Positions 26,755 through 53,019 of a stretch of 64,000 bases of DNA are shown piece after piece. The DNA is taken from positions 29,234-93,233 of the forward strand of contig LVAN01000021.1 in assembly GCA_001604045.1 (NCBI GenBank). The letters are read 5' to 3'. This DNA comes from Clostridiales bacterium Firm_08. Lineage in GTDB: Bacteria; Bacillota; Clostridia; Oscillospirales; QAKW01. The notes beneath the pieces are model-generated. The model was not told where the DNA came from. It made no database searches and saw only the letters and a list, made by a program, of their open reading frames with translations. How positions within the stretch are numbered: the first letter of the stretch is position 1; the number at the start of each line of letters is the position of its first letter. The position numbers and the translations under genes are program-made.

Positions 26755-26765
26755 TTTTGCGAAAA

Positions 26766-26853
26766 ACGGGGAGCTGAGATCACTCGGCTGAGAGAGGCGT
26801 ATCGCGCCGATACCCGAACACCTGATGCGGATAATGCCGCCGTAGGAATGATA
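26766..26853 (+). ncRNA. TPP riboswitch (thi box)
   Basis: ACGGGGAGCTGAGAtcactcggCTGAGAgaggc...GATACCCGAACACCTGATGCGGATAATGCCGCCGTAGGAATGA matches thi-box core. Confidence 0.95.
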
Positions 26854-26866
26854 TGTTTTCTTTCTT

Positions 26867-45620: not shown

Positions 45621-45622
45621 GG

Positions 45623-45649
45623 AAAAGCACTGCGACAGCAGTGCTTTTT
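45623..45649 (+). terminator. Intrinsic terminator after tRNA-Val
   Basis: AAAAGCACTGC GACA GCAGTGCTTTTT. Confidence 0.9.
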
Positions 45650-45661
45650 CAGTTATATTCG
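45645..45661 (+). repeat. 17-mer shared with the left edge of the palindromic array at 48521
   Basis: TTTTTCAGTTATATTCG identical at 45645-45661 and 48515-48531, both directly after a tRNA terminator. Confidence 0.7.
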
Positions 45662-45685
45662 GCTTAAAAACAGGAGTATAAAAGT

Positions 45686-48416: not shown

Positions 48417-48490
48417 GGTGCCATAGCCAAGTGGTAAGGCCAAGGTCTGCAAAACCTTTATCCCCAGTTCAAATCTGGGTGGCACCTCCA
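48417..48490 (+). tRNA. tRNA-Cys (GCA)
   Basis: Cloverleaf with anticodon loop CTGCAAA, ends TCCA. Confidence 0.95.
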
Positions 48491-48491
48491 G

Positions 48492-48519
48492 AAAAATCCA
48501 CGCTTTTGCGTGGATTTTT
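48492..48519 (+). terminator. Intrinsic terminator after tRNA-Cys
   Basis: AAAAATCCACGC TTTT GCGTGGATTTTT. Confidence 0.92.
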
Positions 48520-48520
48520 C

Positions 48521-48698
48521 AGTTATATTCGCCTTACGGCGAGTTATATTGCTTCGCAGTGATATTCGGCTGACGCCGAGTTATATTGCGCTTCGCGCAG
48601 TTTAAGGCGAATATAATATAACTTTGCGGCTTTGCCGCAAAATATAACTATGCCGTAAGGCATAATATAACTGCCGCCAACGGCGGCAATATAACTTT
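48521..48698. repeat. Composite array of short palindromes with inverted AGTTATATT / AATATAACT spacers
   Basis: Spacer AGTTATATT at 48521, 48542, 48579 (degenerate at ~48560) and its reverse complement AATATAACT at 48615, 48641, 48664, 48688, separated by different GC-rich hairpins; outer arms AGTTATATTCGCCTTA / TAAGGCGAATATAATATAACT. Confidence 0.85.
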
Positions 48699-48925: not shown

Positions 48926-49031
48926 ACCTGACACGAGGATGCGTCCGAAGGAAAGGCGAAAATGTTATTTTTTGCCTGCTTTTTCTTTGTCGGAAAGGCA
49001 GGCGGCTTTATTTAAAGGGAGGAACAAAACA
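48926..49031 (+). ncRNA. Candidate structured 5' leader of hyd operon
   Basis: Two mutually exclusive hairpins: GGCGAAAA/TTTTTGCC (48955-48962/48969-48976) and GCCTGC..CTTT/AAAG..GCAGGC (48974-48979/48998-49003) sharing GCC 48974-48976. Confidence 0.4.
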
Positions 49032-49289
49032 ATGGAAACAAGAGTGGCTGTTATCGGGATCATCGTTGAGGATCTTGGCTCTATTGAGGAACTCAACAGG
49101 ATTTTGCACGACTATGGAGAGATCATCATCGGCCGTATGGGGCTGCCGTATAAAGAAAAGCATATCAATATCATCAGCATCGCGGTAGACGCGCCGCAGG
49201 ACGTGATCTCGGCACTTTCCGGAAAGATCGGCAACCTGCGCGGCATCAGCGCGAAAGCCGCGTTTTCAAACGTTATAACCAATGAGTAA
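49032..49289 (+). CDS. TM1266-family iron-only hydrogenase system regulator
   Basis: METRVAVIGIIVEDLGSIEELNRILHDYGEIIIGRMGLPY...; directly upstream of hydE. Confidence 0.88.
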   Translation: METRVAVIGIIVEDLGSIEELNRILHDYGEIIIGRMGLPYKEKHINIISIAVDAPQDVISALSGKIGNLRGISAKAAFSNVITNE

Positions 49290-50331
49290 CGCCGCTTTGT
49301 CGCTCGCGGAAAAACTGACGAGGGATCACGCGTTATCCATCGGGGAATATGAACAGCTTGTTGCGGGATATACTCCGGAGGTCGCCGGTTTTCTCGCGCG
49401 AAACGCCGATCGGACGCGCCGTGAAGTATACGGAAACGAAATCTTTGTTCGCGGGCTGATCGAACTTACAAACTACTGTAAAAATGATTGCTTTTACTGC
49501 GGCATCAGAAAAAGCAACATACTTGCGGACAGATACAGACTGTCGGAGCAGGATATTTTGTCCTGCTGTGAGGAAGGATACCGTCTTGGATTCAGAACAT
49601 TCGTGCTGCAGGGCGGGGAGGATCCGTACTTTACCGACGATGTCCTGTGTCCGATCCTGCGTACGATCAAACAGAGATATCCCGACTGCGCCGTCACGCT
49701 GTCGCTGGGGGAACGTGATAAGGAGAGTTATCAAAAGCTTTTTGACGCGGGTGCGGACCGTTATCTGCTGCGCCATGAAACAGCGGATAAAGAGCATTAT
49801 GGATTGCTTCATCCGGATGATATGAGTTTTGACCGGCGGATGAAATGTCTTGCGGACCTTCGGGAGATCGGATATCAGGTCGGGTGCGGTTTTATGGTAG
49901 GCTCTCCCTATCAAACGCCGCGTACGCTGGCAAAAGACCTTAAATTCATAGAGCGTTTTCTGCCGGATATGTGCGGCATCGGACCGTTCGTCCCGCATCA
50001 CCAGACGCCGTTTGGACATTTTGCGAGCGGAACGGTCGAGATGACGTGCTTCCTGTTATCCATCATCCGTCTGATCCATCCGCCGGTGCTTTTGCCGTCT
50101 ACGACAGCGCTTGGCACGGTTGATCCGCGAGGGCGTGAAAAAGGCATACTGGCGGGCGCAAACGTTGTAATGCCCAACTTATCGCCGGTAAACGTGCGTA
50201 AAAAATATGAACTGTATGATAATAAGATCTGTACGGGTGAGGAATCCGCGCAGTGCCGCGGTTGTCTTGAGACACGTATGAGCTCCATCGGTTTCAGGAT
50301 CGTCACAGCGCGCGGAGATATCAGAAAATAA
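49282..50331 (+). CDS. hydE: [FeFe]-hydrogenase H-cluster radical SAM maturase HydE
   Basis: CKNDCFYCGIR CX3CX2C, LQGGEDPYFTDD. Confidence 0.95.
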   Translation: MSNAALSLAEKLTRDHALSIGEYEQLVAGYTPEVAGFLARNADRTRREVYGNEIFVRGLIELTNYCKNDCFYCGIRKSNILADRYRLSEQDILSCCEEGYRLGFRTFVLQGGEDPYFTDDVLCPILRTIKQRYPDCAVTLSLGERDKESYQKLFDAGADRYLLRHETADKEHYGLLHPDDMSFDRRMKCLADLREIGYQVGCGFMVGSPYQTPRTLAKDLKFIERFLPDMCGIGPFVPHHQTPFGHFASGTVEMTCFLLSIIRLIHPPVLLPSTTALGTVDPRGREKGILAGANVVMPNLSPVNVRKKYELYDNKICTGEESAQCRGCLETRMSSIGFRIVTARGDIRK

Positions 50332-50349
50332 GAAAAGAGGAGAATATAA

Positions 50350-51798
50350 ATGTCGGTTTATGATCCGAGATCGCTGAAAGCGGATGAATTTATCAATCAC
50401 GAGGAAATAGAAGAAACTCTGCGTTATGCGGAGGAAAACAAAAACAACGTGGCGCTGATCGACGCGATCCTTGAAAAAGCACGTCCGAAAAAGACGGAAC
50501 ACGGCGCGGTGTGCGCCGGACTTACCCATAGGGAAGCGTCCGTCCTTTTGGCATGCGATATTCCGGAAAAGATCGAGGAGATCTATCGCATTGCCGAAGA
50601 GATCAAACTCGCGTTTTACGGCAATCGTATCGTTTTGTTCGCGCCGCTGTACCTTTCCAATTACTGTGTCAACGGTTGCGTGTACTGCCCGTATCATTTA
50701 AAAAACAAACATATCCCCCGAAAAAAACTGACGCAGGAAGAGGTCAAAAATGAAGTGATCGCCCTGCAGGAAATGGGACATAAACGGCTTGCGATCGAGG
50801 CGGGCGAGGATCCCAAAAACAATCCGATCGAATATATTTTAGAGTGTATCAACACCATTTACGGCATACAGCATAAAAACGGAGCGATCCGCCGTGTAAA
50901 TGTAAATATTGCCGCCACGACTGTTGAAAATTACCGCAAACTGAAGGACGCGGGCATCGGAACGTACATCCTGTTTCAGGAGACATACCATAAGGAAAGT
51001 TATTTGAAACTGCATCCGACAGGTCCCAAGCACGATTACGCGTATCATACGGAAGCGATGGATCGCGCGATGGAAGGCGGCATTGACGATGTCGGGTTGG
51101 GTGTTTTATTCGGGCTGGAACTTTACAGATATGAATTCGCGGGGCTTATCATGCACGCGGAACATCTGGAAGCCGTACACGGCGTTGGTCCTCATACCAT
51201 CAGTGTGCCGCGCATCAAGCACGCGGACGACATCGATCCCGCCGCTTTTGATAATTCCATCTCTGATGAGATCTTCGCTAAGATCACGGCCTGCATCCGC
51301 CTTGCCGTACCGTATACCGGTATGATCATTTCCACAAGAGAATCCGAGCAGGTCAGAAGCAAATTGCTACGCCTCGGGATCTCGCAGGTCAGCGGCGGTT
51401 CCCGCACATCGGTCGGCGGTTACGCGGAAAAAGAGCGCCCGCACGATACCGAACAGTTTGACGTATCGGACCAGAGAAGTCTTGACGAAGTGGTGAACTG
51501 GCTGATGCGCAACGGACATATTCCCTCATTCTGTACAGCGTGTTATCGTGAGGGACGCACCGGTGATCGGTTTATGAGCCTTTGCAAGAGCGGACAGATC
51601 CTCAACTGCTGTCATCCGAACGCGTTGATGACACTGACAGAGTATCTTGTGGATTACGCCTCGGAGGACACAAGAGAAATCGGATATCAGCTTATTGAAA
51701 AAGAACTTGAAAAGATCCCCAATCCGAAGGTCAAAGAGATCGCGCGTCAAAACATCAAGGATATCAAAAACAGCAACCGGCGTGATTTCAGGTTTTAA
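50350..51798 (+). CDS. hydG: [FeFe]-hydrogenase H-cluster radical SAM maturase HydG
   Basis: CVNGCVYCPYHLKNK, IEAGEDPKNNPIEYI, C-terminal CTACYREGRTGDRFM...CHPNA. Confidence 0.97.
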   Translation: MSVYDPRSLKADEFINHEEIEETLRYAEENKNNVALIDAILEKARPKKTEHGAVCAGLTHREASVLLACDIPEKIEEIYRIAEEIKLAFYGNRIVLFAPLYLSNYCVNGCVYCPYHLKNKHIPRKKLTQEEVKNEVIALQEMGHKRLAIEAGEDPKNNPIEYILECINTIYGIQHKNGAIRRVNVNIAATTVENYRKLKDAGIGTYILFQETYHKESYLKLHPTGPKHDYAYHTEAMDRAMEGGIDDVGLGVLFGLELYRYEFAGLIMHAEHLEAVHGVGPHTISVPRIKHADDIDPAAFDNSISDEIFAKITACIRLAVPYTGMIISTRESEQVRSKLLRLGISQVSGGSRTSVGGYAEKERPHDTEQFDVSDQRSLDEVVNWLMRNGHIPSFCTACYREGRTGDRFMSLCKSGQILNCCHPNALMTLTEYLVDYASEDTREIGYQLIEKELEKIPNPKVKEIARQNIKDIKNSNRRDFRF

Positions 51799-51810
51799 AA
51801 GGAGCTGTAT

Positions 51811-53019
51811 ATGAGCTTGAACGAAACAGTCAGCGCGGAACGTACGCATATCGGTTTTTTCGGCGTCAGAAACGCCGGGAAATCAAGCGTGGTCAATGCG
51901 GTAACAGGGCAGGATCTATCCGTTGTTTCCGATGTTTTGGGGACGACGACAGATCCGGTCAAAAAAGCCATGGAGCTTTTGCCGCTCGGCCCCGTCGTTA
52001 TCATCGACACGCCGGGCATCGATGATGAAGGGATCCTTGGCGAGAAGCGTGTAAAAAAGGCAAGGCAGGTCTTGAGCAATACCGATATCGCCGTGCTTGT
52101 AAGCGACGCCGGGAAGGGGATCACAAAAGCGGATGAAGCGCTGATACGATCTTTTAAGGAAACAAAAACGCCCTATATCATCGCCTGCAATAAAAGCGAT
52201 CTGATGGATGAGATCCCCGCGGCGGCGAATGATACGATTTATATCAGCGCGCTGACGGGATACAATATCAATGAACTCAAAGAGAGGATCGCCGCACTGC
52301 AAAAAAAGGTCGAACATACGATCCCTTTGGTATCGGATCTTCTTGTGCCGGGAGAGTGCGCCGTGCTGGTGATCCCGATCGATTCCGCCGCGCCGAAAGG
52401 AAGGATCATCCTGCCGCAGCAGCAGACGTTGCGCGATCTTTTGGACGCGGGGAACACGGCGCTGGTCTGCCGGGACACTGAACTCGCGAAAACGCTTGAA
52501 AAACTTGCCTCTCCGCCGAAACTTGTCATAACCGATTCACAGGTATTCGGAAAAGTTTCTAAAATCGTCCCGGAGAATATTCTCTTAACGTCGTTTTCCA
52601 TACTTATGGCGCGATACAAAGGAAATCTTTCCGCGCTTGTGGAGGGCGCCGCGGCGCTGGATCGCTTGCGGGACGGTGATACTCTTCTTATATCGGAAGG
52701 ATGTACACACCACAGACAGTGCGATGACATCGGAACGGTCAAACTGCCGGGATGGATCCGAAAACATACAGGGAAAAGCCTTGATTTCCGTTTTACTTCC
52801 GGAACGGAATTTCCGGAAACATTTGAGGGGATCTCCCTGGTGATCCATTGCGGCGGGTGCATGCTGACGGAAAAGGAAATGAAAAACCGCATCGGACGGA
52901 CTTTGTCCGCCGGAGTTCCTGTTACCAATTACGGTATCGCGATCGCGCATATGCAGGGAATACTTCGCCGCGTATTATCTCCGTTTCCGAACATCCTTGA
53001 AATACTTGATAAAAAATAA
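51811..53019 (+). CDS. hydF: [FeFe]-hydrogenase H-cluster maturation GTPase HydF
   Basis: GVRNAGKSSVVNAV, DTPGIDDEG, FeS motif CTHH...HCGGC. Confidence 0.97.
   Translation: MSLNETVSAERTHIGFFGVRNAGKSSVVNAVTGQDLSVVSDVLGTTTDPVKKAMELLPLGPVVIIDTPGIDDEGILGEKRVKKARQVLSNTDIAVLVSDAGKGITKADEALIRSFKETKTPYIIACNKSDLMDEIPAAANDTIYISALTGYNINELKERIAALQKKVEHTIPLVSDLLVPGECAVLVIPIDSAAPKGRIILPQQQTLRDLLDAGNTALVCRDTELAKTLEKLASPPKLVITDSQVFGKVSKIVPENILLTSFSILMARYKGNLSALVEGAAALDRLRDGDTLLISEGCTHHRQCDDIGTVKLPGWIRKHTGKSLDFRFTSGTEFPETFEGISLVIHCGGCMLTEKEMKNRIGRTLSAGVPVTNYGIAIAHMQGILRRVLSPFPNILEILDKK

Follow-up and report, generated by a model that had tools for sequence, protein, structure and literature searches.

A palindromic array beside a clostridial tRNA cluster as a likely non-autonomous copy of a mobile element family linked to IVP genes

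The palindromic array analysed here was found in a 64-kb stretch of clostridial DNA (the window) and belongs to a dispersed, patchily distributed repeat. On balance, the array is likely to be a non-autonomous copy of a mobile family whose members would be served in trans, as folded single strands, by a small protein of the 23S rRNA IVP family. The mobility of the family is well supported by the comparison of sequences between genomes; the chemistry of the move is set out below as a proposal.

Reading of the sequence showed that the element is a palindrome of ∼177 bases made of mini-hairpins (window positions 48521-48696), adjoining a tRNA gene cluster. Four AGTKATATT spacers are followed by four inverted copies, AATATAACT, with seven mini-hairpins in between (Table 1), and the right half reads like the left half on the minus strand. 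An earlier note, made from the letters of the window, had claimed three direct and four inverted spacers, a degenerate fourth left spacer near 48560 and seven distinct mini-hairpins. All the exact spacers were read where it had placed them, the degenerate one turned out to be AGTGATATT at 48558, and the mini-hairpins were present as claimed. The note left out a hairpin termed hp0 (48491-48520) that directly precedes the array. The element starts directly 3′ of hp0, which is the terminator of tRNA-Cys and separates the element from the tRNA. The Asp-Phe-Cys tRNA cluster to which this tRNA belongs has orthologues in three related genomes (G003, G005 and G007).

The central arm has its complement in the outer left arm AGTTATATTCGCCTTA (48521-48536). 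This left arm can pair either with the nearby GGCGAGT, forming hairpin 1, or with the central TAAGGCGAATATAATATAACT, forming a long closing stem; because both structures need this left border arm, they compete, and the same arrangement was observed in most family members inspected. The description as a palindrome made of palindromes was confirmed beyond chance. Seven of the 10 exact spacers found on both strands of the whole 64 kb fall inside the 177 bases, and the folding energy of the strand was calculated to be −79.1 kcal/mol, compared with −50.1 ± 3.8 kcal/mol for shuffled sequences (z = −7.6; 0 of 200 shuffles as low). A repeat scan detected no second array of such kind elsewhere in the window; a decayed second copy lies directly 3′ of tRNA-Val. 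Apart from the element, Rfam found a TPP riboswitch at 26757-26865 (60.5 bits), and genes that by eye resemble an iron-only hydrogenase maturation cluster (TM1266-like, HydE, HydG and HydF) were seen at 48939-53019, ∼250 bases past the element.

Table 1. Features of the element and its surroundings (positions in the window)
Feature	Position	Strand	Evidence
tRNA-Cys, last of the Asp-Phe-Cys tRNA cluster	48417..48490	+	Rfam RF00005, 65.6 bits at 48417-48487
hp0, perfect 13-bp hairpin GAAAAATCCACGC-tttt-GCGTGGATTTTTC; tRNA terminator and left border of the element	48491..48520	+	sequence
Gut-1 RNA match, model positions 1-77 of 77	48520..48591	+	RF01706, 54.4 bits, E 5.5e-8 for the 64 kb window
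Left half: spacers alternating with hairpins	48521..48602	+	sequence, direct-repeat scan
Left-half spacers: AGTTATATT; degenerate AGTGATATT	48521, 48542, 48579; 48558	+	sequence
Left-half hairpins	48530-48541, 48550-48558, 48567-48578, 48588-48598	+	sequence
Central closing arm TAAGGCGAATATAATATAACT (= TAAGGCGAATAT-AATATAACT)	48603..48623	+	sequence
Right half: inverted spacer AATATAACT at 48615, 48641, 48664, 48688	48615..48696	-	sequence, repeat scan
Right-half hairpins	48624-48640, 48650-48663, 48673-48687		sequence
Decayed second copy: terminator hairpin GAAAAGCACTGC-gaca-GCAGTGCTTTTTC and AGTTATATTCGGCTTA, directly 3′ of tRNA-Val	45621..45666	+	sequence

The left half of the element passed the Rfam model of Gut-1 RNA (54.4 bits, with a gathering score of 50 bits); it covers the whole model and has the same spacer-hairpin-spacer layout. 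Gut-1 was reported in 2010 as a candidate noncoding RNA whose role was not known and which was seen only in environmental sequences from gut metagenomes (Weinberg et al. 2010, PMC2864571). A match to an already described repeat family had been held by the earlier note to speak against its reading; the left half is indeed such a match, but RF01706 accounts for only half of the element. Whereas Gut-1 was described as a stand-alone noncoding RNA, here it forms half of an inverted multicopy element that lies beside terminators and has a protein partner. Gut-1 RNA is probably half of a larger inverted mobile element, not a free-standing RNA. In the full-text literature (most subscription journals and bioRxiv preprints lie outside it), PMC2864571 was the only paper found to name Gut-1 RNA or RF01706, and nothing within the same limits tied Gut-1 or heptamer arrays to IVP; an existing description is possible.

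The genome that contains the window (1.72 Mb, 86%-complete) showed 28 Gut-1 matches, 10 of them above the cut-off. Among its relatives, matches were obtained in 32 of 59 genomes, with 0-48 copies each, and presence differed within one genus. Because repeats break short-read assemblies, these copy numbers are underestimates; many copies were observed within ∼250 bases of contig ends (G022, G030, G031, G052, G056 and others). The exact whole-element pattern matched the window copy only, and the other copies were given by the family search. The spacer-family pattern of the window was found at more than 117 places in a species-level genome collection, mostly in Clostridia from ruminants and the gut. 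One of the carriers is the cultured Ruminococcus bromii 5AMG, in which tRNA-Arg, hp0, array and IVP gene lie together in ∼600 bp. Most of the copies printed, from many genera, had a common anatomy of hairpin, left border arm, spacer-hairpin array, central closing arm and inverted array. In six loci from different genera (L030, L031, L032, L034, L041 and L051), a stretch close to GAGTTCGAATTCATACGCAAAACTGCCGAAAATATCTTTTTT was noticed 3′ of the array; it resembles a tRNA T-arm and may be part of the right end of the element.

Four of the 10 above-cut-off copies start exactly 33 nt after a tRNA (binomial p of 3e-11 against uniform placement), and three more lie 216-556 nt after one. By our reading, an array of the window family or a sister family comes after about half of all tRNA transcription units in this genome. 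The contents of orthologous sites were found to differ between sister species. The hslO-tRNA(Asp-Phe-Cys) site is empty in G003 and G007, it holds an IVP-encoding element with another spacer in G005, and it holds the window element in its own genome. In the two empty sites, the terminator is followed by a pepP-like gene, instead of the hydrogenase-maturation-like genes. At the tmRNA site of three species of one genus, three different spacer families were observed, and at the tRNA-Cys site in the same genus two. Together with the dispersed copies and the patchy distribution, these sites, which in sister species are empty or hold another family, support the suggestion of a non-autonomous mobile repeat made in the earlier note. 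The opposite outcome that the note had considered, one occurrence per genome with no spacer conservation in relatives, was not observed, as there were multiple copies and the spacers were found in relatives. Several Arg/Pro tRNA genes of the same genome as the window (L127, at G000:C69:34100-34600, L118, L115 and L125) were followed by a second palindromic insert, which ends in a copy of the tRNA 3′ half (TTCGAACC...ACCA), sometimes together with its reverse complement. This insert gives the impression of a separate element by which the tRNA 3′ end is duplicated.

The copies were found to lie directly against hairpins, which in most cases are terminators. Of 81 window-family copies, 54 start exactly where a stem of 8 bp or more ends, compared with 1% of random positions. 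In its own genome, the hp0 stem of the window was seen with this spacer family next to tRNAs for Cys, Val, Ser and Arg. It may belong either to the element or to the target: one stem occurs at different tRNAs within a genome, yet it is swapped between orthologous copies. In two such copies, the hp0 stem was exchanged as a block in both arms, with the surrounding array nearly unchanged. In a subclass with the hp0 GAGGCGCACTCC-GTAA-GGAAGTGCGCCTC, the upstream sequence is complementary to sequence ∼300-390 nt downstream, as in the split terminator arms AACAAAACACCTGCTC and GAGCAGGTGTTTTGTT, and none of 10 000 permutations reached the observed complementarity score. The copies of this subclass lie inside terminator hairpins, within the loop. 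For the tRNA subclass, which includes the window copy, the split terminator was not significant (650 of 10 000 permutations), and loop insertion was rejected for this class; there, hp0 itself is the terminator. Insertion between the tRNA and its native terminator was also dropped, because a second downstream terminator was present in only 3 of 23 copies. A MITE of a DDE transposon would have terminal inverted repeats and a target-site duplication; here the inverted symmetry was clear, and no duplication was recognised at the inspected borders.

The segments between the spacers were mostly perfect hairpins (189 of 235 distinct segments, compared with 2.4% of shuffles) with 88 different stems; the remark that the spacer is constant while the hairpins vary therefore holds for the family. 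On the spacer strand, TNC loops outnumbered GNA loops by 54 to 1 and TNNC loops outnumbered GNNA loops by 55 to 1, and the pair closing the loop was C-G in 180 of 205 cases. The same loop bias was observed in the GTGAAAT and GCTAAAT families. The excess of TNC and TNNC on the spacer strand means that the complement carries cGNAg and cGNNAg loops. These are exceptionally stable DNA loops, of which d(GCGAAGC) is the classic case. The third base of the GNNA loops was a purine in only 29 of 55, whereas RNA GNRA loops would require a purine there. Folding with DNA parameters favoured the complement (GNA/GNNA) strand in 83 hairpins and the other strand in 10; with RNA parameters the same strand was favoured, but less strongly (69 and 23). 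The loops fit stable single-stranded DNA loops, GNA/GNNA on one strand only, and GNRA-type RNA loops would account for part of the bias. With the right half inverted, the preference passes to the other strand at the element centre; such a change would be expected of a DNA element with two ends, but not of a single RNA.

These observations bear on an account in which Gut-1 would be a genuine noncoding RNA, produced by read-through of tRNA terminators, with a functional structured transcript and with dispersal by gene duplication. We regard this account as unlikely. It would agree with the above-cut-off RF01706 match and the description as noncoding RNA in PMC2864571, with the strong fold (z of −7.6), and with the frequent location of the element on the strand of the upstream tRNA gene. 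But the element lies behind a strong terminator, and its right half repeats the motif inverted, so that one strand would carry both loop types. Moreover, the GNA/GNNA loops of the left half lie on the strand opposite the proposed RNA, and hairpin-less families keep the same inverted heptamer arrangement. The noncoding RNA mentioned in the earlier note as a possible identity is thus matched by what Rfam says of the left half, while the inverted right half and the strand bias of the loops favour DNA.

Directly after several arrays lies a small gene that was assigned to Pfam PF05635 (23S rRNA IVP; also TIGR02436), which encodes a four-helix-bundle protein with the Avd fold. Across 59 genomes, Gut-1 and PF05635 were both present in 29, Gut-1 alone in 3, IVP alone in 6 and neither in 21 (Fisher p of 1e-7, uncorrected for phylogeny), and in many genomes the arrays and the gene were physically adjacent. 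Nearly every IVP gene inspected adjoins a palindromic array, with spacers that are unrelated to each other (GTGAAAT, ATGATAT, ATGATGT, GCTAAAT, TGAATTG, TGAAG, GCGATAT and others). Some IVP-linked families have no hairpins and consist of plain tandem 7-nt units; the gene then often lies between a direct and an inverted array. The best repeat lag was exactly 7 in 26 of 26 such loci around IVP genes, including records of Treponema, Bernardetia, Dolichospermum, Planktothrix, Gloeocapsa, Euhalothece and Monoglobus. Repeats of period 7 thus lie next to the IVP genes of spirochaetes, Bacteroidota, cyanobacteria and Clostridia, and recur in inverted orientation on the other side. The first array statistic around IVP genes had a poor background, with control ORFs taken from loci already chosen for elements; the linkage of IVP and array rests on the tree test described below, the lag test and inspection rather than on that statistic. 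On plasmids (L347, L348 and L349), heptamer-flanked IVP genes were noticed inside defence/restriction operons: between hsdS and hsdR in Monoglobus, between drmD and pglX in Planktothrix and before a HEPN-domain gene in Gloeocapsa.

A tree was made of 79 IVP proteins with 13 spacer families; the proteins are short and many branches are weak. The spacer family changed 15 times on this tree (minimum possible 12), compared with a mean of 45.2 and never fewer than 39 changes after shuffling. In contrast, host family changed 32 times, which was no better than chance (34.5 when shuffled). Since spacer families track the IVP tree and host families do not, array and gene travel together, independently of the host. 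Array and IVP gene form one unit, and each IVP clade has its own spacer. Tight linkage alone could make spacer and IVP co-vary without any binding. IVPs of the AGTK clade were found in 9 of 20 genomes with AGTKATATT arrays and in 1 of 39 without (p of 1e-4, uncorrected for phylogeny); this association, which partly counts adjacent copies, gives an initial and less strong indication of action in trans.

The tree also weighs on the idea of a host-beneficial or neutral palindromic repeat, which would reinforce terminators or provide a nucleoid/supercoiling platform, as has been proposed for REP/BIME, and would be spread by gene conversion and template switching, with the IVP incidental or regulatory. 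The near-perfect hairpins and the stem swapped as a block between orthologues fit template-switch correction, and placement at tRNA terminators could be useful. Nevertheless, the spacer families follow IVP lineage and not the host, one and the same site is taken by several unrelated families in sister species, and many near-complete relatives live without the repeat, which makes a host repeat quite improbable.

Compared with a full-length heptamer-palindrome element, the window copy has a direct spacer array followed by an inverted one and abuts a perfect hairpin/terminator, but no IVP gene was found within it. The two IVPs of its own genome sit elsewhere with other spacer families and clades, and an IVP of the window's spacer clade was not found in this 86%-complete genome. 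Because its spacer family does carry an IVP in relatives, the gene-less window copy is called non-autonomous. It would depend on an IVP supplied in trans and may by now be stranded.

The structure of the IVP was predicted by AlphaFold with a pLDDT of 94. The model matched 2RLD and 2GSC, each of which is a PDB entry with five chains (A-E), and it also matched the Avd protein of diversity-generating retroelements (DGRs; 4DWL/8UB7) with a TM of about 0.75 at a sequence identity of about 15%. No nuclease or recombinase fold was recognised in it. Avd forms basic pentamers with affinity for nucleic acid. By analogy, nucleic-acid binding by the IVP is plausible, while catalysis is not. The likeness of PF05635 to Avd had been noted before (PMC10053308). 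A type III toxin-antitoxin system, which has the layout of a repeat RNA upstream of a small protein gene, was considered as a candidate and rejected, since the protein belongs to the IVP/Avd four-helix bundles and gave no nuclease-like match.

The Avd fold raises a further account, that of a retroelement acting at the RNA level, in which the Avd-like protein would bind the array RNA and recruit a reverse transcriptase in trans, with the cDNA inserted at terminators. Targeting of terminators resembles that of group IIC introns and so speaks for this account; only the target is alike, with no reverse transcriptase and no group II intron match in Rfam. In DGRs, Avd works as a partner to the reverse transcriptase (PMC10053308; structures 8UB7 and 8UBE), which likewise agrees with this account. 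On the other hand, RVT_1 had no match in the own genome (G000), nor in the element-rich, near-complete G014, G056, G029, G051 and G026, and reverse transcriptases were present in 7 of 32 carriers and 9 of 27 non-carriers, with no excess in the carriers. A resident reverse transcriptase as partner was rejected for want of association, and we consider a retroelement of this kind improbable. A RayT-type transposase, which the earlier note had suggested looking for, fared similarly. The Y1 transposase PF01797 had no match in the own genome and is lacking in many element-rich relatives; its presence in 14 of 32 carriers and 11 of 27 non-carriers showed no association with the repeat, and it was rejected as a partner. 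An Avd-like four-helix-bundle protein was found instead.

We therefore return to a mobile family served by the IVP as the preferred reading. A full-length member consists of a left array of a repeated 7-9 nt spacer, often interleaved with hairpins, an inverted right array and one IVP/Avd-like gene. The IVP multimer would bind the cognate spacer arrays of its own copy and of gene-less copies, so that copies such as that of the window would be served in trans. The arrays would act as folded single strands, more likely of DNA than of RNA, exposed in replication, transcription or cruciform extrusion. The protein may then synapse the two inverted arrays, and host replication/repair enzymes would do the joining at a target that is an extruded hairpin. 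Insertion at a hairpin loop or beside a terminator would spare the host gene.

Several known systems share parts of this picture. The 23S rRNA intervening sequence (IVS) forms a hairpin within the loop of the structured region that it interrupts, and in some cases encodes a protein of the IVP (PF05635) family. It thus has the same protein family and the same preference for hairpin loops, but the present element occurs at protein-gene/tRNA terminators, with many gene-less copies per genome and with spacer arrays; the window element lies between tRNA-Cys and protein genes, not in a 23S rRNA gene. With DGRs the likeness is limited to the fold of the partner protein, since reverse transcriptase, template repeat and variable repeat are absent from the present element. 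REP/BIME-RAYT systems also have dispersed palindromic repeats read as folded single strands and served in trans, which is an analogy only; the present element differs from them in having no Y1 association, and in having repeated spacers and full inverted symmetry. The cyanobacterial heptanucleotide STRR are simple tandem repeats described without a partner gene. In Planktothrix, Dolichospermum, Gloeocapsa and Euhalothece, IVP genes were found here to have tandem 7-nt units to their left and right, and we propose that STRR and the IVP-flanking heptamers are the same. More broadly, and only tentatively, these systems might form an enzyme-less mobile class spread over several phyla, in which a pentameric Avd-like protein would grip heptamer arrays on folded single-stranded DNA and host enzymes would insert the element at extruded hairpins, terminators among them, within the loop. 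Gut-1 RNA, the 23S rRNA IVS and the cyanobacterial heptanucleotide repeats would then be forms of this class, and the Avd of DGRs a descendant that became coupled to a reverse transcriptase.

For annotators, Gut-1 calls would mark the borders of mobile elements, and tRNA terminators and terminator loops would be insertion hot spots in gut Clostridia. The reading proposed here offers an explanation for a database ‘noncoding RNA’ whose role was open, proposes a role for a large protein family that has gone by the name ‘four helix bundle protein’ alone, and suggests where the Avd of DGRs may have come from. If the IVP binds the arrays and is needed for movement, the family would be mobile without bringing along a gene for a strand-cutting enzyme.
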